DNA from: Protonemura montana
Lineage: Eukaryota > Arthropoda > Insecta > Plecoptera > Nemouridae
DNA: 64,000 nt
Assembly (NCBI GenBank): GCA_947568835.1
Contig: OX387606.1
Coordinates: 8,618,001 to 8,682,000 of the forward strand
Reading direction: 5' to 3'
Part shown: one piece after another, positions 3,001 through 61,605 of the stretch
Numbering within the stretch: the stretch's first letter is position 1
Layout: each line of letters begins with the position of its first letter
The notes under the pieces: model-generated
What the model saw: the letters and a program-made list of their open reading frames with translations, nothing else
Database searches by the model: none
Told to the model about the DNA's origin: nothing
Made by a program: the position numbers and the translations under genes

Positions 3001-4488
3001 TTGTGCTGCAGGAGCTGGAGGAGATGTGGTGTTTCAAGGACATCTTGGGCAACTTTACGCAGCGGCTTGCTCATTGCTGCTCTCTGGAACTGTTGCCACT
3101 CATGGACCTACCAGCAGTGAAAAAAGTGAGGACACTAACGCCATCTTCTAAACATATTCTAACTAGTTTATACTCACAGAGTTTTTGGTTTCTCTGGTGA
3201 TTCTGGTGAGCTAGACTGGAAAAATGTGCAACCGAACCGGGATACAAACCCAGGACCTCCCAATTGCCAGTCGGGTGCTCCAACTGAGCTATCCGGGCAC
3301 ACATATTCCTGTTTTTGCCGGGTGGATTAAGGGATCCCCTCGAGGGGGAAGAGGTGGAGGTGACTCGTAATGACGAGTTCTTAGCAACTCTATGATGAGA
3401 TGTTAATTTAATGACCACAGGACAGAACGTCTGTCTCCATTCCGCAAATCCCGTTCTGTATCTCGAAAGATTTGGGTTGTTGCAGATTTTTTGTTTTACT
3501 CGTTTTTGATTTATTGTATTGGCAAGATTTTTGTCAATGATTGACTTGAGAAATCTTGAGTGAGGTTATGAGTAGGTTTTCTTAAAAGTGGCTCCTTTTT
3601 TCTATGAAATGAGATTTGATGATGCTTTTGCACTGGTTCTGTCACAACCAGAAATACTTTTACTAATAGCCTGATGAATTTAATTTAGGAGATACTAAAA
3701 TTACTTATAATTAACACTTGATAATTCTCATCCATTCCTTCCTCTACTTGAATGACAGTTGAATTAATTGATTTCTCTACAGGGTCGAGCCAAGCAACTG
3801 TACAATGCTGGTTACAAGTCAATTATGGACGTTGCCAAAGCTGATCCATCTGTACTAGTCTGTGAAATTAATCCGCTTCCGATAAGGATGGCTCATCAAA
3901 TTGTTGCTGCTGCCAAAGTGAGCACAAACATATTGCAAATATTGATCTACGATGGATAATTGTTGTGGTGAGGAAAGAGAGATAGGGCGCAACACACAGG
4001 AGAAGAAAATTGCTGTCAAGTCGTGCACTTACCTGTAAAGAAATTTCAAGAATTTCCAAAAGTTTTAACGTTTTGGCATGTTTGCTTTGTTATTGTTATC
4101 AACTTATCTCATAACAATGACAAATTTAACATGTCAAAATCTTTAAATTTTTGGAAATTCTAGAAATTTCACGGTAAGTGCACCATGTGACACCAATTTT
4201 CTTCTCCGGTGAGTTGCACTCCATCTCTTTTTCCTTCTTCACCTCAACAACTATTTACATATTGGCGTTGAAACCATTCCCTAACATTCATTAGCCCAAT
4301 TTTAATTTTAATATTTAAACAAATTTTCTCTCACCACTGCCTTTAAATTGATAATCTTAATGATGATCTTCCTAATTAAAAAAAAATGTTATCAGATGCT
4401 GTTGCTGGAAAAAGTTGAAACCCTTCGAGAGGACGCTGCTGACGCTATTGAGGTTTTAGCTATGGGGGAAGCATTGAAGTTTGATTAA
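92..4488 (+). CDS. HELQ: HELQ, DNA repair helicase (3' part; gene starts upstream of window)
   Basis: HELQ is a superfamily 2, 3'-5' DNA helicase of the POLQ-like/Mus301 group that acts in the nucleus on stalled forks and in double-strand break repair. Eight exons are visible: 92-266, 1204-1554, 2229-2386, 2576-2671, 2753-2926, 3012-3125, 3783-3917, 4396-4488. All have AG/GT borders and stay in frame (431 residues plus stop). The first exon begins with VGRAGRAG, helicase motif VI (QxxGRAGR). The winged-helix and ratchet regions follow. The helix-hairpin-helix segment [18 protein letters not shown] near the end is nearly diagnostic of HELQ rather than POLQ. The N-terminal region and motifs I-V lie outside the window. 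The protein ends KFD at 4486-4488. Introns hold a 5S SINE, a tRNA-derived repeat and a fold-back element. HELQ is preferred to POLQ because no polymerase domain follows. Confidence 0.93.
379..824 (+). mobile_element. Complete 5S-rRNA-derived SINE (SINE3 type) with target site duplication
   Basis: The first ~110 bases (about 379-490) read as a diverged 5S rRNA. They contain the internal pol III control region around GAAGTTAAGCAAC (A box) and TGGGTGACC (C box). The body includes the block CCTTCGGAAGGGACGTGAAG followed by CCGGTGGTCCCC, similar to a conserved body segment in several invertebrate SINE families. The tail is a short AAT repeat (808-824). The element is flanked by a perfect 14-bp direct repeat, TTTCCTAATTACTA, at 365-378 and 825-838, which marks target-primed insertion. 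It sits in a HELQ intron in the sense orientation. The preserved target duplication suggests a fairly young copy. Confidence 0.9.
3231..3298 (-). repeat. tRNA-derived SINE head or tRNA-Ala-like pseudogene
   Basis: Read on the minus strand this begins GCCCGGATAGCTCAGTTGG, a typical acceptor plus A box. An anticodon arm with a CTGGCAA loop (anticodon GGC, Ala-like) follows, then a T arm with GGGTTTGTATCCC (B box). The 3' acceptor strand pairs imperfectly with the 5' side, so a functional tRNA is unlikely. Flanking sequence on both sides may belong to the same SINE. It lies antisense in a HELQ intron. Confidence 0.6.
3957..4255. mobile_element. Fold-back / MITE-like element, ~300 bp, nearly continuous palindrome
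   Basis: The left arm (about 3957-4090) and right arm (about 4120-4255) are inverted copies. Shared blocks include GAGAAGAAAATTG, GTGCACTTACC and AGAATTTCCAAAA, each found in inverted form on the other arm. The inner sequence TTTGTTATTGTTAT / ATAACAATGACAAA continues the stem, so the whole unit folds around about position 4107. No coding capacity and no clear target duplication were found. It lies in the last HELQ intron. Confidence 0.65.
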
Positions 4489-43100: not shown

Positions 43101-46100
43101 CTTTGCCCACTGGTGGGGGTTGATAGTATTGATCAGGCGTTACTATGAGAGAGAGCTGATACATTTCAGTAGTAGCATTCCTAGTGAGCTAGCCAGCCAG
43201 CATCCGTTTCTCCGTGCAATCAATGAATCCACAAGTCCTACACCCTCTTTCATGTCATCCTTCAGAATGTTTTCCTAATCCTAGCTCGATCCTTGCTCCA
43301 ATGAGTTGTTCTGGCGAGAGTGGGGCCGATCCCAAAATGTTGGGCTTATCTCGTGGCGTGCCGTGTGGGAAGGTGTGGATGGAGACGGCGTCGCGCCAGA
43401 TGATTTATCACTACCACTTGGTCATGACTTTTCATCCTCCATTGCGCGATTTATTGCTTGTATGTATATCAACTTACATCGGTAGTCTTGATTGTGTTTT
43501 GATGTTGATATTGCCTGATTTTGCTGATAAACATAGTGAATGTATCAAAAGATGCCAGCGTAATAATGAGCCATTGCTATTCTGAAAATTATTTCGTGCC
43601 ATCACGTTGTGTTTTTTGCACATCTTCCCTTGCCTGATCAGCAATGAATGTCGATCTCAACATGCACGGTTCTTCACTTTCCACAGATGCGCCCGTTCGA
43701 GCCGAGTTGATGGAGCAAGTGCCTCATATCACAATGTACTGCCATGAAGAGCGAGATCGTTTGCTTCAAGTCATTCCTGACCACCTGCTGCCGTTGGTCG
43801 TCAAGTTCCTCTCGGACACCGACAATCAGGTACGCACATCAACAACTAGATTCGTGTCAAATCTTTGGGTTTACAATTAAACATTGATATTTGCAAAACG
43901 ATGATGGTTTGATGTTCCAGGCCTTTTGGTGGTTGCCATGGTTTGTCAAAATTTCCGAGGCTCCAAATAGTTTTCCCTCCTTCACAGCTTTGTATGCCGT
44001 GGCAAGCCAGCCAGCTAACAAGTACGCTTACCATTCTGTACAGGTACGCAAGATGTCCCACGCTGCGCTGCTCGTCATGATGGAGCAGGGACTGATCGAA
44101 CAGGAGGCGGTCGAGCGGACCGTTTGCCCTGTCGTGATTCACCTGACCGAGCTCGAGGGACAAGTGGAATATCACACTGGAGCCATTGCGGTTAGTACCC
44201 CCGTTTTCCATCCTTGGCTTTCATTTGAAGCGTTTTAAGCATCGGATTGGTCTTACCAAGCATTGCTAATTAATGATCAATGGTGTAGTACCTAGCAGCT
44301 TGTTAGTTTACAAGGGTAATGGGTCTATTGCAGTTACATGTTCTTCTTAACTTGTAAAAGCTTCACTCGATTGTGTTCTTATCTCTGGTTTGATCTTGGC
44401 TGCCATGTTGGAAACTAACTACTGATGGAAGCATTGATTAACATCCGTGGTGGAGCGAGAGCATAATATTCTATGCATGACTCTGTGATGGCTTGGTTAC
44501 TTTGCTGTTGCCTTGTGAAAGACATGGGTAGTGAGATGTTGCTAGCACTGATCTCACTACCTTGTCTTTCATGTGGCGGAAGCGGAATCGGCAAACTTGC
44601 TTCGTCGATTTGAAGACGTGATGGAATCGGGAGCCGCAAACTTCGAGACGTTTGGCAAAGTTCTGGCATCAATGCTGGTCTGTAATAGAGCTATTGTTGC
44701 TATCACAGCCAGCTTTGATGAGCAGAAAGTTGCCTCCAAATCATCACTGAAGAGTGAAGGCTACAAGATATCATCATCTAAGTTTAAAAAATATCTCGAC
44801 ACATTTCTGGGTACACATGTCAATGTTGATGTAGAATTAATGACAGTAATGGGTTGTTCAAACTGCTAGACATTGAACGTAGGAACTGCTAGACATTGAA
44901 CGTAGGAACTGCTAAGCACACGTTGCTAGAGCTGACACATCAATCTGGTTGTGAAATGTATTTACAATCGCATTCGTATCACAGCCACTTTGATGAGCTC
45001 AGAGCTAGATATACGCATCATCTGGACAGTCGCTGCTAACAATTGTTTCTCTATCTTAAACGTTTGCATTCAATTAAATTTTAACAAAATTAGTAATAGT
45101 TTTGTGTCTTAGATATATTTGCAGAAACAATGCTGGTAGCAAGACCAGTTGCTCCTGTGGCCCGCCAGTCAAAATGGTTGTGATTTGTGTTTTTATTATT
45201 CATATCACAGCCATTTTTGACGAGTTGGGATACAGGAAAGTTTCCACCGACCGGAACACGTTCGAGAGCCGAGAGTGTCGTCTGCTTTGCTCGCAAGGCT
45301 GGTGTGATGTGTGATCCTACTTCATATCACAGCCAGCTTTGATGAGCGAAGCGGACGGCCACATATCTTCAAGCTGCTGAGCCACACGGCTTCGGGGACG
45401 GCAAGTTTCTGGTGACGCTCGTCAGGGTGGCTGTTGTATGTGCGTTTAGCTTCATATCACAGCCAGCTTTGATGAGCGCCACTGGTCACCCATTCAGCGA
45501 GGATCCGATGTGTGTAATCAAATTATTGCGATAATATTTCCTAATATCTATGTGTGGAATATCTGTTAGCTCAAGTATTCAGGCTATTATTAGCTCTCTT
45601 TAAATTGAATTCTATTTGTGCATTTTAATTACTCATACGTCCATTTGCACGTAAATAATACCAAATTCAATTGCTTGTAAAGTTAATTTGGTGCCACTGT
45701 AGTTTGTTTGCTGTACTTACGAGGTTTCATTTTTTCTTTCTGCAGCTGATGGCAAAGATGGCACCACTTCTTGGAGGGAGCAAGACTAAGGAGCTGTTTA
45801 TACCGCATTTTGCAAAACTATGCTGCAACCAATTGTTCTACGTTCGTAAGGCTTGTGCTTCGTTCATCGGAGATTTCTGCGCAGTAATTGGAACTCAGGC
45901 GGCAGAGGAACTCTTGGTAAGAAACTTAATTCGATTTTTGTTTTCGAAGTTGCAAAATTCTCTCATCTTGCATCTATTTAGGATTATTTGAAACCTGCTA
46001 GCAATAGTTTTGTTCAACTATCTTCCCAACTATGGATACTCCTTTTGCATTTAAAAAACAACTAGCTAGAACTGAAAGTGATGTCAAACAGCTGGAAACT

Positions 46101-49100
46101 TGTGCAGTTTTTCATATATCTGCATCTACTATTCTTTATATAAATTACCACCAAATGAATCAGCAACAAGCATAGATTCCCTATGACTCATAATAATTAC
46201 CCAGACCTGTTTGAGTCATATTAGTTGCCTAATACCTGCAAAGGTTTGACCAACCTAATTCACATACAGCTACCAGTGCTAACAAGTCTCTCCTGCACCC
46301 CTGCAGCTGAGCAAGTATATTGCGCTCTGCGGCGACGATATATGGGGCGTGCGTAAGGCTTGCGCAGAGGTGATAATGCCGGTGGCATGCAAGTGCACGA
46401 TGGAGTCGCGCCGCAACGTGCTTGCGCCGGTGTTCAACGCATTGCTGACCGACGGCTCGCGGTGGGTTCGCTCTTCAGCGTTTGCCACACTCGGGCCGTT
46501 TATCTCAACGTTTTCTCCGCGGTGTATAAGCGACCTTGCGTACAACCACCTGCGCGAGTTGGTGGTTGTAGATGATGACCACAACGAGTTCAGGTGAGTG
46601 TGGGGACAGCAACTTAATACTAAACAAATAAAAAAAAAGGGGTTTTGGTAATCACATGTTTCACATTGGTTCATGGTCCCCTCACTTGCCATTCTCGATA
46701 CTTTTTTTTTTAACGGGACCTGCTATTGAAATCTCGTTTGCTCGGTACATTCTTATCTACTGCAACTGACAACTAGTCCCATTAAAGCAGCAGTATGCAT
46801 GCTTGTTTCTGGCAAAAAAAAATTGGCACTAATTTTGCTGTTAACGAGAGTACACACCCTCTTAAGGTTTTCGTCTTATTGCCAACAGGCTGTGCACTGC
46901 GAAAGGGGGCGACGGCGATGTGGTGAAGTTCGTGGACGGCTCGCAGCCTTTCAACCTCAACTTCAGGTACAACAACCTCACAGAAGACAACAGCAACAAT
47001 AGCAGCGGCGGCGGTGGAACCGTCGAAGCAAGCGAACAGGAGGACACAAATCCGCCCAACCGCCGGCAATCAGCCAATTGGTCAATTAGCACGCCTGTGA
47101 TAAACTCGGAAGGATCAACCGAAACCGATCCCTCCGATGCCGACAATAAACCCAACGAAACAGAAGTCAAAAGCAGTCCAACGGAAACGATTGACGACCA
47201 CACCTATGCAGAAAAACCCACCATAGATGAAAATGCAGATTCCACCGATCGAATCGGAGTCGGCGGCACCCTGGAGCCTCAGGCCGATGTCGTCAACGCT
47301 GAGGACCAGGATGCCGAACTGCCGGCTTATGATGCGTTACGAGCAACGAGTAACAGTGGAGACGGTCTCGCAGAAGGCCGGTTGGATGATAAGATGGCAA
47401 GAGATAGTAATGTGAAGCCGGACGGATTGATCAAGAACTTGGAGCAGACGCTGACTCTGAACGGCGGACAGCGGCATATCCACGTCGAGAGCTTCAACAC
47501 GTTTCAGTACTGGCGTGTGCCGATACCCGAGCTGTCAGTGGACATCAGCCTTGACGGGGGGAAGACTACGACTGTGCAGGTCACGGCCAAAGTGACGCAT
47601 CCTGCTACGCAGCAGACATATGCTGCCAAGCTTGATGTCAACATTGACATCGAGGTAAGGAGATTTTTGTAAATCCATATCAAGTGTGATCAATTTATAG
47701 AAAAACTCGTGAAAAAGATCCTTTAACACATTTGAATCCTGAGAATTGGCTTTGTTCGTTCATCTGATGCTTCCGAATACAACAGGCAGGGATCATGGCA
47801 GGTTTAACAGCTAAATTCTCAAGCAGTTAAACAGTTAAATTCTAGCTCTGCTAAGAAGCAAAAATAGAGAACATTGGTAGAAACATTGTGAGTCTCGATA
47901 AGTTTTTTAATCAATTATAGTCACAACTGTGAATTTCTTCCTGTGTAGTTGTAAAGGCAGCAGCTATCTAACTCGAGGGCATTTGGTATATCAATTTCTT
48001 TGGAAAGTTTATTAAATGTTAATTCAGGATTCTTTTCTGAGAACGTCACGTGGAATGGCGGTCTTGAACAAAACTCGGTAGCGAGCCAACATGGGCGTGT
48101 GTTAGGTCCCAAAAATTTGCCAGCCCAATGTTGTTGTTTTACGCTGTGCCTGCTCACTCGCGTGGTTTTTACAGAATGACCTGGAAAAACTTGCCAGTCA
48201 ACTGGAGCTGGGCGGGTCAGGTGTGGGGCCAGTGTGCTCGACTACGGCTACAACAGTGAATAAGAGCTGCAAATCACGCGATTTCTACATTGGAGTTGGT
48301 GCCTACGACTCCGGTGCCAGCACCCAGCTGCGTGCAGACGTTGTGTGCAATTGTGAGTTCCCATTCTCATGCTTAATGAAACAGTCCACTGCCAGTAAAG
48401 CGGAAATAACAACAGCATTCAACCTCGAAGAAGCTTAACAAGTTGTGTAAACAAGTTTTAAGGTTTTTATTATTTTGAAGAGTAGCACCCCGGTAAAGCC
48501 ACTGTTGTATGAAATTTAATTTTGATATTTCTCGTTGGTTACTCGCTTTTCAATCTCTACCTCAATCGTTGAGGTAAACATCGATAGAGATCTTTTGAGC
48601 ATGAAAAGTCTCGAAAGCGAGCTAACCTACGAGTGGCTCCACTTAACGGGGTGGTGTTCCGGTACTCTACATTTTTGTCGGTAAGGTAGTCATTTGGCGG
48701 CCATCTTTCCCGCAGAAACTGTAAAATAAACATTCTGCCTCTACCTATAACCTGCACAGTCTACGGTAGTAGTGCTCATAATAATGAAATACCCTGCGCA
48801 TTGCAAGCGTTTGCAATTTAAATAAGATTTAAAATAAGTTTTAAAGTTGCATACATAAATTTAATGGCCATCATAGATTGCACAAACAGGCCCCTCATTT
48901 TGCTAAATTTTATAAAATTTAATACATAAATTGCACCCAAGCTAACAAACAGCTCTGGCCCTGTAGTGGTCCCCAACGCGACAGACTGGGATGGAGAGGA
49001 TCGACGAAGTCCGTGGTCCCGGGGTGTCGCCTTAAAGCCAACGGCTGCAGCAGCGGAGGCTTTGGCAGGGCAGGATATTGTGCCGCCTATGCTGCTGCAG

Positions 49101-51772
49101 CACTACGTCTCGATGGGAACAACTACGCAGGCGCAGGCAGTCGACTCCGAGGTCGCGCACCACTGCGCCTTCAGCTTCCCTGCTGTAGTGATGACGCTTG
49201 GCAGGGATAACTGGCCTTTGCTTCGGCCGACCTATCAGGCGCTTGCCACAGACTTTCAGGTGGGTTGATTATTTGTGTGGTGTTTGGAGCTGGACTTTAT
49301 AGTTAATTTCATGTAAATTTTGAACGTCTCATCCTTATGCCACTTTCTTTTTCCTGAGACATGACTTGTGTGCCCAAGTTCTTGAAGCAGAAAGTTCTGG
49401 CTATGAAAATATACATATCCCACTATTCGAAGTTTGCTATACTGGATAGTCCTTAATTACATCTGAATTTTGAAATTCAGGCCTGAGAAGGGTACGGTAG
49501 CGCAGTGTTGTTTTAAATTAGGCTAGTTGGTGTGGTGCAGCTGGCTAATCAAAACCCCATCTTAAACTTTAAAGCTATGGTTAATTGGTTATGTTAACTC
49601 TAATCTAGTCGGACCCCGCTCGCTCCTTTGACAATTGTGGAACTTGCCATTGTCTGACGCTTACAGCATTGTCGTTTTCAGTGGAAGGTTCGTCGAACGG
49701 TGGCTTCGGGTATCCACGAGGTGGGCCTTGTGCTTGGCTTGCAACTGGCCACGCATGACCTCATCCCGATATTCAACGACTTTATCAAAGACCTCGACGA
49801 AGTGCGGATCGGCGCTCTTAAGCACCTAGCCAGTTTTCTAGCGGTAAGACAGGCTCCTCGTTACCATATCGTTAGTGATCTTTTTCAGATGGCCCAATGA
49901 CCATTTTCCAATCGAAAGATTTTAGTCCAGGAATACTTGTTGGAAGTAGACTTGAGTGTTATCAAGTTTAGAGTTGGCCGTGGCTCTTTGATATGGAACT
50001 ATCTTAAAGCGAGCCTAGTTTGGTTGACAGAAATCATGAAAGATGCTCATGCTTGGCATTTAAACTGGGACCTCAGATTTTAGATGTGGTTTCTCTCTGT
50101 ACACAGCTGTAACTTTTTTTGCGTAACACCGTGGAATCATATCATATAATAATGTAACAAACAATTGTTCCTTCTACAGCTGCTCCTTCCAGAGGAACGG
50201 AACACGTACTTACCACGACTGCAGGAGTTCATGTTGACCGATAACGAATGGAACTGGCGGTTCCGTGAGAAGTTGGCTGAGCAGCTGTATCTGTCGGTGC
50301 CTCTTTTTGAGCCTTTTGATGCTCGTACCTACATCATGCCGTTGGGCTACACATTGCTGCTAGACAAGGTGTCTGCCGTCCGACACATGGCACTTAACTT
50401 GGTGAGTTGAATGATCGTTGATTCTTGTTAACCTACTTCCGGGTCCCGTATCGAGTTTCTAAGGTAGTAACCATTTCTACCCCCCAAGATTTCACTTTAT
50501 CTTCAATTCTCTTCTGACTGTGCATTCTTATCTGACCAATAGTATTCAAGGAACTGGTGTGATCAAGAATTAAGATTATAATCAAGTTGAAAGGTCAAGC
50601 AGTTGTTAGAAAGACTTTCAACAAGTAAGTTGCGTTACAATTTTTTCTGTAAAAACCCAGTATTTTTTTGAAGCAATCGATAAAGTTTTCTTAACCCGGT
50701 GAGATCAAATGTCTTACTGTGCTGTGTTGTTTCAGGTGAAGCAGTTGGTCCAGCGTGTGTCGGCAGAGGCTGGGCTGGTGCGCGGAGTACTGACTGACTT
50801 GGCGCAGCAATTTGCGCACAGCAAGTGCTGGTGTCGACGCCAAATGTTTGCGCTGCTCTGCGCCCGGCTGGTGGCCGAGAACGTGCTGAGCGATGAGGAC
50901 TTTGCGCGAGACGTGCTGCCGCATTTGCTGGACCTGAGCTGGGATGCGGTGCCCAACGTTCGGCTTGCCGTGGCAAGAACACTTGCCTCGCCCATCATGG
51001 AGAATGGTCAGTCCAGGCTTGATCAGATTGGAGTTTAGTTAAATGTTAATATTGGAATGACATGGGTGGTTGTAAGGTACTTGTTTTGACAAAAAATACT
51101 CCAAGGCTTAGTAGTCAGCCGCCCATACATTGAGACAGGAGAACACCGGCTAGCCTTTATTAGAATTGGTAATGAATTCAACATTTTAAGTGATGTGTGA
51201 AGACGAAAGACAGGTGTGGGGGTAGGGGAGTGGCACAGTTTACGGGAAAATAAATAAGGTGGCGGTTCGTGGCACACTTGTATCGTTTTGGCTCTTGCCA
51301 TTATCACAATGGAGTAACTTAGCCTGGAAGTTGAGTATGTTTATGAGATAGCTTAATCTCTTAATCCTTAATTGGCTTATCCTTAACTGACGAGAAATTT
51401 GTGTTAAATTAACTTGCATAAAGGTTAACTTGTCTGTGGATAATCAGACATTGAAACTAATTTCTTTGTTGTTGATTCCACAGTGGTATTTATTCCATAA
51501 GCTGTTATGTCATATATGTTTTTGTCATGTAAACTCGACTAGTATTTTTTAATTTTAAAGTGTCTGTATGTTACCTTATTGTTGGGTGTTGCTTTGTTTC
51601 AGATTACTTCCTAAGCGATGACTGCCCTCATTCTGAGCTAACGTACCAGGTTATGCGGCGTCTTCAGAATGACGCCGACCAAGATGTTCGGGTGTGCGCC
51701 TTGGCAGTAGGGAGCCAACGAGTACATAAATACACCCCTAGCAATCTACGATTCCCCATCCCTCTGGCCTAG
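22176..51772 (+). CDS. PPP4R1: PPP4R1, protein phosphatase 4 regulatory subunit 1
   Basis: PPP4R1 is a HEAT-repeat scaffold that binds the PP4 catalytic subunit and directs its dephosphorylation targets. Fifteen coding exons: 22176-22182, 22265-22309, 25769-25880, 39550-39656, 43687-43829, 44044-44190, 45746-45916, 46307-46593, 46889-47654, 48175-48352, 48967-49259, 49682-49843, 50180-50401, 50736-51006, 51603-51772. They total 3081 bases, in frame throughout, giving 1026 residues (human ~950). HEAT blocks include RAELMEQVPHI, WGVRKACAE, SRWVR, WKVRRTV and DLDEVRIGALKHL. Exon 9 carries an acidic Asn/Ser/Gly-rich disordered insert (about residues 370-520), as in vertebrates. Exon 1 codes only seven bases (ATG GCA G). 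Intron 3 is 13.7 kb and CpG-rich. Intron 6 houses the miR-71/miR-2 cluster. No AATAAA was found in the 500 bases after the stop. Confidence 0.95.
30737..30794 (+). other. Candidate alternative first coding exon (MASFMWGFPSGKRKATDVR)
   Basis: In the CpG-rich part of PPP4R1 intron 3, an ATG opens 19 codons. They end at G|GTAAGA, a strong donor, in phase 1. PPP4R1 exon 5 (43687) starts with two bases of a codon, so skipping exon 4 would keep the frame. It could be an alternative PPP4R1 start, the first exon of another gene, or chance. Confidence 0.3.
34334..34361 (+). other. Second candidate alternative ATG exon (MNGMTSCYS)
   Basis: ATG, nine codons, then C|GTAAGT, a near-perfect donor, also in phase 1 and so also compatible with PPP4R1 exon 5. 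The region is CpG-rich. There is no similarity evidence. Confidence 0.25.
39657..43686. other. PPP4R1 intron 4: no gene seen; long poly-C tracts
   Basis: This 4-kb intron contains C19 at 39948-39966 and C27 at 41205-41231, an AGCC tandem run near 40215-40240, and CpG-rich sequence up to about 41.2 kb. It becomes AT-rich afterwards. ORFs on both strands show no recognisable domain. Confidence 0.5.
44503..44582 (+). ncRNA. mir-71: mir-71 precursor
   Basis: The 5p arm 44516-44538 begins TGAAAGACATGGGTAGTGAG and matches mature miR-71 of protostomes as I know it, including seed GAAAGAC. The 3p arm 44551-44573 (TCTCACTACCTTGTCTTTCA) pairs with it almost completely around a 12-base loop. The stem extends outward through TTGCC / GGCGG. 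It is the first hairpin of the cluster in PPP4R1 intron 6, on the host strand. Confidence 0.95.
44654..44734 (+). ncRNA. mir-2: mir-2 family precursor, copy 1
   Basis: The mature-like 3p arm at 44701-44723 begins TATCACAGCCAGCTTTGATG, the miR-2a-type sequence with seed ATCACAG. The 5' arm (GCATCAATGCTGGTCTGTAA) pairs with it. The base is closed by GGCAA/GTTGCC. Confidence 0.93.
44861..44914. repeat. Short tandem repeat, 23-bp unit, ~2.3 copies
   Basis: The unit beginning AACTGCTAGACATTGAACGT is present exactly twice, at 44861-44883 and 44884-44906. An eight-base partial third copy follows. It lies between two miRNA hairpins of the cluster. Confidence 0.85.
44926..45008 (+). ncRNA. mir-13: mir-2/mir-13 family precursor, copy 2
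   Basis: The 3p mature-like segment at 44977-44998 begins TATCACAGCCACTTTGATGA. It has the miR-2 seed and the shortened middle typical of miR-13a-like members. The 5' arm CATCAATCTGGTTGTGAAAT pairs with it. Flanks CTAGAGCTGA / TCAGAGCTAG close the stem. The sub-family name is tentative. Confidence 0.88.
45154..45236 (+). ncRNA. mir-13: mir-13b-like precursor, copy 3
   Basis: The 3p segment at 45203-45226 begins TATCACAGCCATTTTTGACG, close to miR-13b. The 5' arm GTCAAAATGGTTGTGAT is almost perfectly complementary. CCTGT/ACAGG closes the base. Confidence 0.9.
45275..45360 (+). ncRNA. mir-2: mir-2 family precursor, copy 4
   Basis: The 3p segment at 45325-45347 begins TATCACAGCCAGCTTTGATG. Its mature sequence is identical to copies 1 and 5. 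The 5' arm (GCTCGCAAGGCTGGTGTGAT) pairs with it, and GTCTGC / GCGGAC extends the stem. Confidence 0.92.
45409..45485 (+). ncRNA. mir-2: mir-2 family precursor, copy 5
   Basis: The 3p segment at 45455-45477 is identical to copies 1 and 4. The 5' arm (GCTCGTCAGGGTGGCTGTTG) pairs with it. Base CTGGTG / CCACTGG. It is the last recognised hairpin, 260 bases before PPP4R1 exon 7. Confidence 0.92.
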
Positions 51773-53033
51773 CCCTCCCCTTGCCACTAGCATCAGGTTC
51801 GACATACAATCTAGCCAAGATATTGATTATTAATGTTGATCCGTTTGTTTCTAATCTTACATATATTTCACCATCCAATCAATATGAAACTGAAACTTGG
51901 TTATGTGATAACAGTTATTGCAAAGTGCTAATACTAGTCAACCGAGGATGTTTGTTTTTTGTTTTATATGAGTATAGCACGTTTCATTGGCGCTGGACAC
52001 TTAATGATTTTTTTATACTGTACAAATTTTGTCTCTTCCCTTGGACAAAATTGTACTCCACAGCTGACTAGGCTATCATTGCTTCTTCTAGGGGCTAGAA
52101 ATACTTTATCTCTATCCTGGACCTCGATATCTTACACTTCACACTTGCCTCGGAGAGCTTTAAGTTCTGTCGTATAAAATATTCGATGATATTCGATGAA
52201 ATTAGCTGTAACAATATATTAATGATATACCCATCTTAACATGTTGCAGCAAGCAGTTATCATTTATGTAATACATTTTGGGAGTATATTCATATATTTT
52301 TATTATTTGCTCAGTGAATCAGATACTGGATAGCACCAGACATTGAAATTAAGAATTAAAGTGATTTTGAGAAACTCGGTACCATCAACTGCTTGTACTC
52401 TTGAAGGCACAAATCGCACCATTTGCTTAGCTTTTTTCCGATCCAATTGTTTCATCAAGTGTCGTTCTTTAGCTGCTAGATACTCCTTTATGTAATACGT
52501 CCCAAGTGGTCTCAAGTTGGCTGTCGCGTGTTGTTGTCACGCACGGTGTCTGTTGTTTTTGTTAAATATGTCAATCCTTGGAGGTTTTGTAGATTAAAAC
52601 ATGTGAAGAGTGCTGTTCTCCATTTCATGGTACTTTATATTGCGTAGGTGCTTGCACCCTTATGTGTAAACACATTTGATACTATACTATGAGACTGTTA
52701 AAATTGGAGGGAGCTCTGAGAAAGTGGAAAGTTCGTGTCACTGGGCCTAGAGTTAAAAGGCGAAATGTTAACTGATTTTTTAAAAATATTTCTAAATAAA
52801 CTGATAATGATATGTAGCAGTATAGTGTTTTTAATTGTGGGTGAGCTGGGGCAGATACATACTAGCTTGGGTGCTTTGCTTGGGATCCGTAAAGGAATAG
52901 GTTTTTTCTACTTCATAAAATGCGGTCCTATTTGAATATGGTGTTAATACACATAGCAAATTTAGGGTGCTTTGAAGGTCGAAAGGTTTGTATTTTTCCC
53001 AACTTGAAGGAAAACTAACCCGAAAGGACGATC
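51773..53033 (-). other. Region after PPP4R1; possible unrecognised minus-strand exon at 52303-52540
   Basis: A minus-strand ORF ending at 52303 encodes a hydrophilic, plausible-looking segment (LRPLGTYYIKEYLAAKERHL, then MKQLDRKKAKQMVRFVPSRV). An in-frame stop is followed directly by AATAAA. An acceptor-like CGACAG precedes it near 52520. I do not recognise the family. Composition looks more protein-like than random ORFs here. It would converge on PPP4R1 and diverge from USP38. The rest of the region shows nothing. Confidence 0.35.
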
Positions 53034-53360
53034 TTAAATATGGCGCGCTCTTGAAATGAGTTGCCAGTTGGCGGTAGCGTTGGTGGTTGTCAAAGTTCTA
53101 GGGTAAGATGGGAGGGGTTGAATTGACGAGGAGTTTGAGCGTGAAATCAATTCCGGTGTTGTAATTGAGGTTTTGGGAAGTTTTCGGGGATAGATCTCGA
53201 TGGCGCGGAAAGGAGAGTTGTTTTCTGCGTAAATACTTATTGGAGTTTTTACAAAGCTTTTATTTTGTACTAGATTTGATACGTAACCGCAACTGATGCC
53301 GGGTGGTAAAATAAGAGTGGGGTTATGGTGCGTTGACGTATAGTGCAAACGCGTGGTCAT
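53034..53360 (-). CDS. Hypothetical ORF divergent from USP38
   Basis: A 108-codon minus-strand ORF starts at an ATG 77 bases upstream of the USP38 ATG, a typical bidirectional-promoter spacing. The product is Thr/Ser/Pro/Asn-rich (MTTRLHYTSTHHNPT...), with no recognised domain. It could be the first exon of the gene whose 3' part lies near 52303-52540. I could not join the two. It may also be chance. Confidence 0.25.
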   Translation of the reverse strand: MTTRLHYTSTHHNPTLILPPGISCGYVSNLVQNKSFVKTPISIYAENNSPFRAIEIYPRKLPKTSITTPELISRSNSSSIQPLPSYPRTLTTTNATANWQLISRARHI

Positions 53361-53437
53361 GTTGTCTTCAAACCTAGCCTACTTCGAAGATGAGATTAGA
53401 TTGTGATATTTGGAAGAGAGATATCCTACTTTAGAAA

Positions 53438-56400
53438 ATGAATGGAAAAATACTTGAAGAAATGTCCGAAGATGGTGACTTGATCATCAATGCAAAGATT
53501 GTCGTATTATTAATTGCCAAATTAAAGAGGCCGGCACCAGATCCGAAGAATCTGAAGGAGTTTAATGATGAGGTTAATAAGTGGGCAGTCGTTTTGGAAG
53601 GAATTTGGTGTAGATCTAAAAGTCCACATGACGCTATGTATTCCAGTTTGTTGGTCGTCTATGAATCCATATCGGCAGGTTAGTTTTAGTCGTGATTTTA
53701 CTGAATAATTTTATTGTAAATTTGGATTCCATAATCATATGATCTGTAATTTTCTTTATTTTAGAGAGTTCTCCTAACTCATCACTTGCTTCTGTTCTTC
53801 AATTAGTACCACCCAACCTAATTGTAGTGGCTTCACGTGCACTTGTGTTGGCTCCAGAATCGACACCAGAGGGTCTAACCAAAACTTTACAAGCCCTTTG
53901 TGATTGGCTGATTGTGGCCCCAAAAGCAACTCACCTCCCGATTTGGATTAAAGCATTAGTTGATGCCTTATGCCAAGATGGCAAGAGTGCAGTCGTAACT
54001 GAAGTTGCGTCAAATGTGGTTGAGAAACTAATGAGTGTCTTGCACCTTCACTTCCTCCGTCCTGGTGCACTGGCTGCCCTTCAATGTTTGGTTGGTTTCT
54101 CAAACCCGGATATTATAAAGGTTTGTTAATTTCATTTGTTGATATGGTAGGTACCTAACCATTTTGATAGTTAGCTACATAGTCAGGAAATGTTATCTTT
54201 TTAAATACTAGTAGCCTTAAATATATTTTGTATATTGTTAACAGGCCTGCATAGAAGAGAGGTTACCAGCTTTAATAAATACGCTACAGCTAGAAAACTC
54301 TCCCTCAAGCACGGAATGCATAAAGTTGCTGATGGGAGTTCAACAGGTACCCATGAAAAAACTACTGAAAAATACAAGATATGTTAATTGCTTTTTTGCC
54401 ATTGGAGATAATATTCACTTGATGACAATCTATTAATACCAGCAACTTAAATTCTTAATAAATGGGGTGCATGAGTTATATTGGGCGTCAATACGCGTGG
54501 ATGTAAGCAGTCTTTCTCATTCATACTTATATTTTGGTCATATCCCCACTTCCACAACTTTGAGGAACACTTGGGTGTGCAATTGTTCAAAATAATCTTA
54601 CAACTATAACCAATTTAACTAGATCTGTAAGATATTGCTAGATGTTTAGATATTGATATATTAGATTGCAATTCGTAATATTGCTTATAGAAGTGCAGAG
54701 TAGCAATGGATCACCTTTTAATATCCTTGGAGAATGGACACTTGGGTTAGCCTGATCCGGTAATGGGTGACAACAATAAACCGGTTTGATTTTGTGGTGT
54801 AGGGGGGGGGGGGGGGGGGTTATATTTGTAAGATTATTTTGAACAATTGCACACCCAAGTGTTTATCAAAGTTGTGGAAGTGGGGATATGACCAATCACC
54901 TAATTCAAAACACTCCTCAATCGATCAGATGCATGCTCAAAAGTAAATATTTTAGGGCTTAGTGTTATGGCATAATTGTTATCATCGTCCTAAGCCCAGT
55001 AGTAAACTCATTTTCTGCACTGATTGTCAGCCAAAAACATATTGCACTTGTTACCACTGTCCACCGGAGGCCACGGCCGGACTCCAGTTACCATTTCATA
55101 TCAAGACATTTTTCATTTTTTCACCCTTACTCTCTAAGCAGTTGCAACAACTGCTTTCGGCTTTTTATGCCACGCCACTTGTCGGACATTTCACAAGCAG
55201 ATTCACTGAAAGATAAAAACTAAAGTTACAAAACTTAACGCATTAGCAGCAAGATTGAACTGGGTCCATCAATTGGGTTGAGGAATTACTGATTCAGATT
55301 GGTACTCAATGATTACTCAATGATTGGTACTACATGTGTCGCTCTTGTCAAAATAAATCCCATATTTCACTTCCACTACAATCTGCAATCTTGACAGTTG
55401 TACAAATACCCCTTGTTTGTTTTGAGGACTGCAAATAGGGTCGCTATGTTTCGCATTGGCAAAATAATGAATGCTCCCGATTGGATTCGATTCTTGCTTG
55501 TAGGAGTTCTAGAAAACTTAAGATTAATTTTGGGCTTTCATTTATTGCTGTTAAGTCTCCAGGGCAGTGGTTAAAATAACTAAACTCCCAGATTTTCAAC
55601 GGGGCCACTAAACTGATGCGAGGGCCCGAGCCCCGGCGCCTGAACTAGGCGCCGGGGCTCGGGCCCTCGCACTGAAGCTACAGCACTTAAAAACTACAAT
55701 ATACTGGGATTAACATATTTTGCATGTTTATAATTTGTAAAATTATCAATGCTTATTATTTGTATCTCAATTTATGTACATAATACGATGCATGATGCAG
55801 TAATAAAAACTTACAATTGCAGATTGGAGTAAACTTTGCTGCACAACAAAAGGTTGGGCTTGTGAACCTGGGAAACACTTGTTATATGAACAGTGTCCTT
55901 CAAGCACTGTTCTTGACAAATCAGTGAGTTGAAATTTCTTACATGAAGTTATCTAATTATAAATTACAGACTTTTTAACTCTTTGTAACAAAATTGAGAA
56001 CTTCCATCAAAATGCATTTTTTTTTCTTGTTGCACTGTTTTCATTAAATTGAGTATGGGTATTTAGTGCATTACTTTTGTTTAAACTTACCTTGTTTAAA
56101 AAAAAAATAGCAAAGTGTTATGTATATATCGTATAAGAATGGCAATTTTTTTACTAATTAATTTAACTAGTATTTTTATATTGAACCTTGGCCTCTGGAG
56201 GTGTATAGCCTGCTCGATTTTCTGTCCCGATACCTGCATCTTGAGCTTTATTGGCTGAGTTTTTAGGTTCTGTGCGGACATTTTGGCGGCACCGTGTGCT
56301 CCTGCTAGGCCCGTATCATGCAGGCTGCAAGAGCTGTTTGCCCTGCTGAGGTTTTCTCGACGTTCAGCGATTGCTCCCAGGGACTTCATGTGTGTCAGCC

Positions 56401-58460
56401 GTCCCTCCGCCTTCTCACTTGGCGAGCAGCAAGACAGCTCCGAGTTTCTCATGTAAACATGATATACACAGTTTTGGCTGCAGTGCTTTACGAGTTAGTG
56501 CAGTTCAAATTCTCGCAGTAATCTTGAAACAGTTCAAAATATTTTGCTCATTAGTTGTGCAAAGTACTGCTTACATAAAGAAAAAAAAATAACTCATTTA
56601 CTATATTTGTTTTCGGAATATCAAAATACCTAGTTGGAATACAAATACCTACTTGAAAAACTGATATTCATACAAATAAAAATGATTTGAAAAAAACTCG
56701 TCAATAATTCGTTCAATTTCATTAATCAATTTCTCATCTCTATTGACGGGTTACAAAATTGCTGGCACTTTTTTTCGTTACTTATAATTTAATAGAGCCA
56801 AATGGCTTAATAATCTGGCAGCACACCTCGAGAGAAAATGTAGCACAAGATATTTTTCGGAGTGTCAGTGAAAAATTATGTATTGAAAACACAGCAACAG
56901 CCGTGGAAAACTGTGTGACAATGTTGTGAAATCTGATATACACTGCAAATTGCAAAGCACATGGTCCAAGTAGCTCAATTGGTTAGACCAACACCCATGG
57001 CAGGTGGTGATCAGGATTCAATTCCCTTTTTGGGCACTAATTTTTGAGAGGTTTAGTATTGCTAATAACAAATGCAACAATGTTAACTATGATTTGTTGC
57101 AGCCACCTGCTAGACACAATCCACGAGGAAGAGAACAGCACGGTGAGTGTCCAGGAGAGCGACTCGAGCCTTACGAGCGTGACCTTGAAGCAGATCCGGT
57201 CCCGGTCCTTGTCCCCAACGGCCGGTGAGTGCTGGCTGGTGCATGCCCTGCTTATCACTGTCTTGGATTTTTTCAGAATGACATTATATAAACACAAAAA
57301 ACTTGCTGTCGTTAGGTAGTGGCACAGATAAGCTTACACAGAATACTGTTCTAGTGTATATAATATATATATATATATGTATATATATTTATGTAATGAC
57401 TAATGAAGTCTGTCATTATATGTCAAATTATACCATTTCTGTGGTGCTTGCAAATGTTTTTTCTATTTTGAACATTGTCTTCAAGAATTTACCAATGAAA
57501 GAAATTGCCTTGAATTATTGATTATCTACGTGCTTCTTACAAATCTACTTCCTTGTAGGATTTTCGGAAGCTGCTGACCTACGGAGGATTCGCTCGGCCG
57601 ACGAAACTCTATCGCTGTCCGTACCGTTCAGGCGGTGTCGCAAAATTTCAAAGTTCAACGGGTTAACTCAACGATCGTTTGGCGGGAAAATGCTGACCGT
57701 TGTCAGATGCTTCACCTGTTTCTCAGAATCGCAAAACATTGATCCTTTCATCGATATGCATCTATCATTCCCACGCCAAAACAGGACTCCCCAAACGTTG
57801 CAAAACCTGGTTGACATTTATTTCAAGCCCGAAATTCTTACCGGGGAAAACCGCTACAAGTGCGACAAGTGCAAGAAATTGTGTGATGCGCAACGAACGT
57901 TACAAATGGTAGAAACGCCATCCAACCTGATCGTCACCGTCAAGCTCTTTGGTTCCAACCCCCCCACGAAACTGGCGCACAGACTGAGCTATACAGAGAG
58001 CATCCACTTACCTGGCAACCTGGCATACAAGCTCTACGCCGCCGTTGTGCATTATGGCAGCTCGCTCCACTCGGGCCATTACCTCACCTACGCGAGCAAC
58101 TCCAACTCTGAGTGGCATCTTTACGATGATGATCTTGTGATGCCGTCGTCGTTTGCAGAGCTCTCGCGCTGTGTCTCTCCACGCACGCCCTATGTGCTCT
58201 TCTTCTCGCGATCAGCTGCACCACCCCTGGACATGTTTATAACAGCAGCGCAACTTCCGGTGCGACTGCGCGAGTTTGTTGCACAAGACAACGCCGCCTT
58301 CACGCAGGGACAACGTGATGAGGAGGAACGCCGGCGTCGGCGCAATGCTGTAGTGCAGTTCAAAGACCATCGCCGAGATGACAGTGACGACAACAACCCG
58401 CCAAGCAATTGTGGTGGGGGCTCGGGCAATGGGATGCCCCCAATGCGGTTTACATACTAG
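53438..58460 (+). CDS. USP38: USP38/USP35-type ubiquitin carboxyl-terminal hydrolase
   Basis: This is a cysteine protease that removes ubiquitin (peptidase family C19). Exons 53438-53678, 53765-54120, 54245-54346, 55823-55923, 56267-56452, 57103-57224 and 57559-58460 join in frame to 669 residues plus stop. Residues 1-230 are helical and armadillo-like (PHLP-type helices, ending KACIEERLPALINTLQLEN). The Cys box KVGLVNLGNTCYMNSVLQAL puts the nucleophile at about Cys253. The exon-5 block GEQQDSSEFL is the USP QQDxxEFL motif. Zinc-binding pairs CFTC (420/423) and CDKC (471/474) follow. The His box YGSSLHSGHYLTY places His at about 543. The C-terminal tail is Arg/Asp/Gly-rich and disordered. Vertebrate USP35/38 are about 1000 residues, so the N-terminal repeat region is shorter here. 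No extra exon was evident. Confidence 0.93.
54534..54895. mobile_element. Fold-back element with ~77-bp terminal inverted repeats
   Basis: The left arm 54534-54611 and right arm 54819-54895 are inverted copies with only about three mismatches. Shared blocks include TTGGTCATATCCCCACTTCC and CACTTGGGTGTGCAATTGTT. The interior is about 207 bp and includes a G18 run at 54802-54819 immediately inside the right arm. No coding sequence and no obvious target duplication. It lies in USP38 intron 3. Confidence 0.8.
55618..55670. repeat. Perfect 23-bp GC-rich hairpin
   Basis: The arm 55618-55640 (starts GCGAGGGCCCGAGCCCCGGC) and its exact inverse at 55648-55670 surround a seven-base loop TGAACTA. It is almost pure G/C within an AT-rich USP38 intron. 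The function is unknown. A template-switch inversion or a repeat terminus are possible. Confidence 0.85.
56963..57036 (+). repeat. tRNA-like sequence in USP38 intron
   Basis: The 5' GTCCAAG can pair with 3' TTTGGGC (with wobbles). TAGCTCAATTGGTTAGA is a good A box. GGATTCAATTCCC serves as a B box. The anticodon loop lacks the normal T33, so this is more likely a tRNA-derived SINE head or a tRNA pseudogene than a working tRNA. Confidence 0.5.
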
Positions 58461-61400: not shown

Positions 61401-61435
61401 AAGAGAACCTGGAGGACCTGTGATCAGGCAACGGA

Positions 61436-61485
61436 GTTCGACTGCCGTTCCTCCAGTCGCCCAACTGGAGGAACGGCAGTCGAAC
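61436..61485. repeat. Perfect 22-bp hairpin
   Basis: The arm 61436-61457 (GTTCGACTGCCGTTCCTCCA...) is exactly inverted at 61464-61485 around a six-base loop CGCCCA. A related sequence, TCTGGAGGAACGCCAGCCGA, recurs near 62990, so part of it belongs to a repeat family. Confidence 0.85.
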
Positions 61486-61605
61486 TACGTTGCATCGCGC
61501 TAGATCTTGTCGTGCTAGATCCTTCTGTCTCGACGCTGTTACTGGAATTATCTAATTGCTTGATGGCGTTCAGATATTTGGCCATTCTACATATTACGAA
61601 GAAAG

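Follow-up and report, generated by a model that had tools for sequence, protein, structure and literature searches.

A mir-71/mir-2/mir-13 microRNA cluster in an intron of a PPP4R1-like gene of the plecopteran insect Protonemura montana

Introduction

Six hairpins lie close together on one strand of a Protonemura montana gene, and they raise a question with three parts: are they the protostome mir-71/mir-2 cluster, which gene carries them, and what does that address say of their history and expression? The window analysed here is a stretch of 64,000 nucleotides (NCBI GenBank assembly GCA_947568835.1, contig OX387606.1, positions 8,618,001 to 8,682,000 of the forward strand), and all coordinates below are counted from its first letter. 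An initial annotation, made from the letters without database searches, had read the locus as a microRNA cluster inside an intron of PPP4R1, the gene for a regulatory subunit of PP4. MicroRNA hairpins of this kind are processed by Drosha and Dicer, after which miR-71-5p and miR-2/13-3p act through Argonaute.

Judged from sequence, positions 44503-45485 are very probably orthologous to the protostome mir-71/mir-2 cluster, whose arthropod form they show, and lie within a PPP4R1 intron. The cluster and its arrangement within a PPP4R1 intron are both already published for other invertebrates; the reading is right, and it is not new.

Identity and order of the six hairpins

Along the + strand the order runs mir-71, mir-2, mir-13a, mir-13b, mir-2, mir-2, with all six hairpins inside 1 kb: mir-71 comes first and the mir-2 family copies follow it on the same strand, the arrangement by which the protostome mir-71/mir-2 cluster is recognized. 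The initial annotation fared well on these points. Its six same-strand hairpins are all detected by Rfam on the + strand, its mature 5' ends (44516, 44701, 44977, 45203, 45325, and 45455) are exact in every case, and the order with miR-71 first, which it described as known from protostomes, is matched by the content given for four arthropods in PMC9170749.

The mir-71 hairpin (44510-44578, +) scores 67.2 bits against RF00832, for which the cut-off is 50, and its fold has a z of -7.4 against shuffled sequence. Its 5p arm (44516-44539) and star arm (44552-44573) agree letter for letter with the bmo-miR-71 and miR-71* sequences given in PMC2500172. Position 44516 is paired to 44571, two positions short of the star's end at 44573, which leaves the 2-nt 3' overhang of a Drosha end. 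The antisense strand of the hairpin (44509-44577, -) reaches 46.8 bits in Rfam, under the cut-off of 50, as expected because the hairpin is near-perfect.

The five mir-2 family members, all on the + strand, were scored against RF00047, which has a gathering score of 45.5. Three exceed it: mir-13a, or copy 2 (44933-45002, mature 3p 44977-44999; 54.7 bits, fold z -4.9), mir-13b, or copy 3 (45162-45229, mature 3p 45203-45226; 62.7 bits, fold z -6.2), and mir-2 copy 5 (45415-45481, mature 3p 45455-45477; 45.9 bits, fold z -6.8). The other two fall below it: mir-2 copy 1 (44662-44727, mature 3p 44701-44723; 32.7 bits, E 0.0011, fold z -5.4) and mir-2 copy 4 (45287-45351, mature 3p 45325-45347; 40.9 bits, E 8.9e-06, fold z -10.1). 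Between mir-2 copy 1 and mir-13a lies a perfect 23-bp tandem repeat of 2.3 copies (44861-44914).

As had been claimed, 5/5 copies carry the seed ATCACAG, in each case within the 3p arm of a stably folded hairpin, and three mature copies are identical, with one 23-mer common to 44701, 45325, and 45455. The copy at 44977 is identical to dvi-mir-13a of Diabrotica as printed in PMC9170749, and that at 45203 to bmo-miR-13 of Bombyx as printed in PMC2500172; compared with this latter copy, dvi-mir-13b does not match, being one U shorter inside. The locus thus carries exact counterparts of four published strings of 22-24 bases (miR-71, miR-71*, miR-13, and miR-13a). The 10-mer TATCACAGCC occurs five times on the + strand of the window, always within the cluster, where simple arithmetic predicts about 0.1 occurrences; a search of the window's - strand for the same 10-mer found none.

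Detection limits and controls

At its curated cut-offs, Rfam passes four of the six hairpins (mir-71 and three mir-2); mir-2 copies 1 and 4 were added, with the E values given above, by a permissive scan of 43600-46600 (3 kb). This 3 kb scan returned 29 matches up to E 1, including other microRNA families below their own cut-offs; two mir-2 hairpins also scored on their antisense strands (36.1 and 31.2 bits), again below cut-off. Since antisense strands and other families score as well, the 32.7 bits of copy 1 are not decisive when taken alone; what supports copy 1 is its sequence and its position, not the score.

These scores bear on one rival explanation, namely that some of the weaker hairpins, chiefly mir-2 copy 1 at 44701, have decayed and lost their processing. 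Copies 1 and 4 do lie under the Rfam cut-off, and copy 1 does not outscore the antisense strands of other copies; against this, both fold far better than their shuffles and retain the same 23-nt mature sequence as copy 5, and a mir-2 in first place is also listed in PMC9170749. We regard such decay as quite improbable, and read all six hairpins as members of the cluster.

In a fold check of each hairpin, suggested by the initial annotation, all six were more stable than 300 of 300 dinucleotide shuffles, with z from -4.9 to -10.1. Plain stability, surveyed over 2131 + strand segments of 90 bases on a 30-base grid, is not unique to the cluster: the 25 most stable segments include ones over four of the six hairpins, leaving out mir-2 copy 1 and mir-13a, and the top two lie elsewhere. 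Two perfectly paired inverted repeats were seen in the window, at 55617-55671 (26 bp stem) and 61435-61486 (23 bp stem); the 90-base segments that hold them, near 55591 and 61411, fold at -65.4 and -60.8 kcal/mol and exceed the stability of every cluster hairpin.

Other, even stronger hairpins in the same window could invite the view that the six arose by chance, or belong to a miR-2-like repeat family. Against this, the locus reproduces four published strings of 22-24 bases exactly, side by side, with the content known from the literature and in a host of the kind already described; these exact matches in effect refute a chance or repeat origin and leave the protostome cluster as the reading to be followed.

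The host gene and its intron

The cluster lies in an intron of 1555 bp (44191-45745, +) that begins with GT, ends with AG, and is in phase 0; the donor reads GCG/GTTAGT and the acceptor TTTCTGCAG/CTG. The exons on its two sides share one reading frame (...HTGAIA/LMAKMAP...). The host gene looks like PPP4R1, a name that comes from comparison with a human sequence: the tblastn query consisted of two pieces of human PPP4R1 reconstructed independently of a database copy when the translations of the window were already known, so the likeness to PPP4R1 may be overstated.

Of the 17 rows with E below 2, 11 are collinear on the + strand between 25819 and 51700; the best E among these is 4e-21, and three have a weak E of 0.003 to 0.045. 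The remainder comprises three cross-matches within the host gene and three weak - strand matches elsewhere. Four PPP4R1 blocks precede the cluster intron. Among the coding blocks nearest to it, the alignment at 43695-43844 (+; 52% identity, E 1e-12) extends beyond a GTACGC donor at 43830, and the exon that abuts the intron on its 5' side (44044-44190, +) falls within a match over 43987-44193 (E 2e-10), its ends being set by reading ...ACAG/GTACGC and GCG/GTTAGT. On the 3' side, the abutting block (45746-45919, +; start exact, end as aligned) has 47% identity and E 4e-15; it is included in the query that gave the PP2A scaffold match and is without a Pfam match of its own. Next comes a HEAT repeat block (46283-46516, +; 50% identity, E 4e-21), which reaches 26.5 bits in Pfam HEAT at a cut-off of 23.5. 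The C-terminal coding sequence is spread over five tblastn blocks with introns between them (49071-51700, +): those at 49071-49259, 49679-49846, 50192-50416, and 50736-51005 have E of 2e-19 to 4e-12, and the last, at 51551-51700, is weak (E 0.029). A long + strand open frame inside the host (46866-47672), with a Pfam WRNPLPNID match of 19.3 bits that is below the cut-off of 27, is perhaps a variable central exon of PPP4R1.

Database searches taken by themselves (PDB and Pfam) describe the host as a HEAT-repeat, PP2A-scaffold-like protein. When the translations of three host exons were joined and compared with the PDB, they matched the PP2A scaffold subunit (best whole-sequence E 2e-13), none of the 25 PDB sequences listed for these exons being named PPP4R1, and Pfam on three host stretches places HEAT above cut-off in one, with a second HEAT below it. 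Residues 1-42 of human PPP4R1 and the stretch between the two query pieces found no placement in the window. The initial annotation had spoken of intron 6 of PPP4R1 on the same strand: a + strand intron of this gene is borne out, and the number 6 is not confirmed because the 5' exons are not all placed.

Other genes and gene-like matches are present in the window. Downstream of PPP4R1 on the same strand is a USP38-like ubiquitin hydrolase gene (53743-54129 and 57522-58460, +), with Pfam matches to Usp38-like_N (E 5e-13) and UCH (E 3e-17). A 5S rRNA match (378-498, +; 58.6 bits, above cut-off) and a tRNA-Ala(GGC) (3228-3298, -) are each either a gene or a SINE-like remnant.

History of the copies

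The initial annotation had explained the identical mature sequences by tandem duplication with selection on the mature strand. Part of this account stands: likeness among the copies is restricted to the mature strand, and the flanks do not support a recent duplication. On the downstream side of the mature arm no copy pair out of ten stands out: the observed identity is equalled or exceeded by 37 to 300 of the 300 shuffles. Upstream of it, three of the ten pairs (2-3, 3-4, and 3-5) exceed their shuffles (at most 1 of 300 does as well), as expected because the star arms are complementary to the mature arms. An exact 29-mer common to copies 4 and 5 consists of the mature arm and six further bases.

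Recent duplication of whole units was considered and is unsupported, the flanks downstream of the mature arm being no more alike than shuffles; this shuffle-level likeness is better fitted by old copies whose arms have been kept. An origin of mir-2 within a mir-71 transcript, followed by expansion through duplication, is discussed in PMC3763532.

Expression, processing, and a possible link to the host

Sequence, folds, family, order, intron boundaries, and host homology come from the analysis itself; from established microRNA biology we infer how the locus would be transcribed and processed, which arms would be chosen, and what would be targeted. The primary microRNA would most likely be either the pre-mRNA of PPP4R1 or a transcript that begins within the gene. 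Drosha would cut the six hairpins from the intron and Dicer would then make duplexes, of which Argonaute would keep miR-71-5p and the miR-2/13 3p strands; these loaded strands would repress mRNAs that contain GTCTTTC or TGTGAT (K-box) sites.

How closely the cluster would follow its host is a separate matter. A possible expression link between microRNA and host is backed by co-expression in oyster, where the correlation with PPP4R1 reaches r = 0.93 for the best of six mir-2 (PMC4138081). The cluster might instead have an intragenic promoter of its own within PPP4R1 and be expressed independently of the host. Strong co-expression of host and microRNA in just 21 of 76 oyster pairs (PMC4138081) would suit such independence; the position of the cluster on the host strand in a short intron speaks against it, as does that oyster correlation for mir-2 and PPP4R1. 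We hold a separate promoter to be possible, if somewhat doubtful, and retain transcription with the host, or from within it, as the working proposal.

A stronger claim would be that the cluster has stayed fixed in the PPP4R1 intron ever since the protostome ancestor because the microRNAs need the expression programme of the host. If this were true, the host's reported loss in Drosophila would go with the cluster's move and break-up; the new part would be the forced link between host and cluster, ancestral residence having already been proposed (PMC4138081). We consider this claim unlikely.

Sites through which the microRNAs might act back on the host were also sought. In 51700-53400, the stretch after the last PPP4R1 block in a gene whose 3' UTR is not mapped, CTGTGAT, GTCTTTC, and TCTTTCA are absent, and TGTGATA (the K-box 7-mer) occurs once, at 51904. 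These counts say little for or against feedback on the host because about 0.1 of each 7-mer is expected in 1.7 kb.

Comparison with known clusters

The locus adds one more record of mir-71/2/13 inside PPP4R1, with no wider consequence from this record alone, and it agrees with the published view of an ancestral address. Its content is that described for four arthropods in PMC9170749: one mir-71, one mir-2, two mir-13, and two mir-2, in the same sequence. The variation given there includes a silkworm gap of over 15 kb after mir-71, an added mir-3842 in the red flour beetle, and one mir-2 on the opposite strand in the honey bee, whereas here all six members lie on one strand within 1 kb. For Diabrotica, the same source reports that expression of the cluster members is correlated across six life stages.

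The address, too, has precedents. In the honey bee, a cluster was placed in 2007 in intron 3 of the serine/threonine phosphatase gene GB15727, which Drosophila has lost (PMC2394756); the honey bee cluster comprises three mir-2, one mir-13a, and mir-71, as against three mir-2 and two mir-13 after mir-71 here. We infer that GB15727 is PPP4R1, a name absent from the passages of PMC2394756 that describe the gene. The same microRNA family is present in Drosophila, but in two clusters and with mir-71 lost (PMC3763532); mir-2 lies there in a spitz intron and mir-13 in a CG7033 intron (PMC4138081). In Echinococcus, the cluster has been described as intergenic.

Whether PPP4R1 is the host in other protostomes, a point raised by the initial annotation, is largely answered in print for oyster and C. 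elegans (PMC4138081). In the oyster, six mir-2 were reported in 2014 from an intron of PPP4R1 (CGI_10023188), and in C. elegans a single mir-2 lies in ppfr-1, the PPP4R1 orthologue. The main text of that paper does not contain the term "mir-71", whereas the present cluster includes mir-71; what the P. montana locus has in common with both animals is the host gene and the intronic placement, the mir-2/PPP4R1 arrangement that PMC4138081 proposed to be ancestral.
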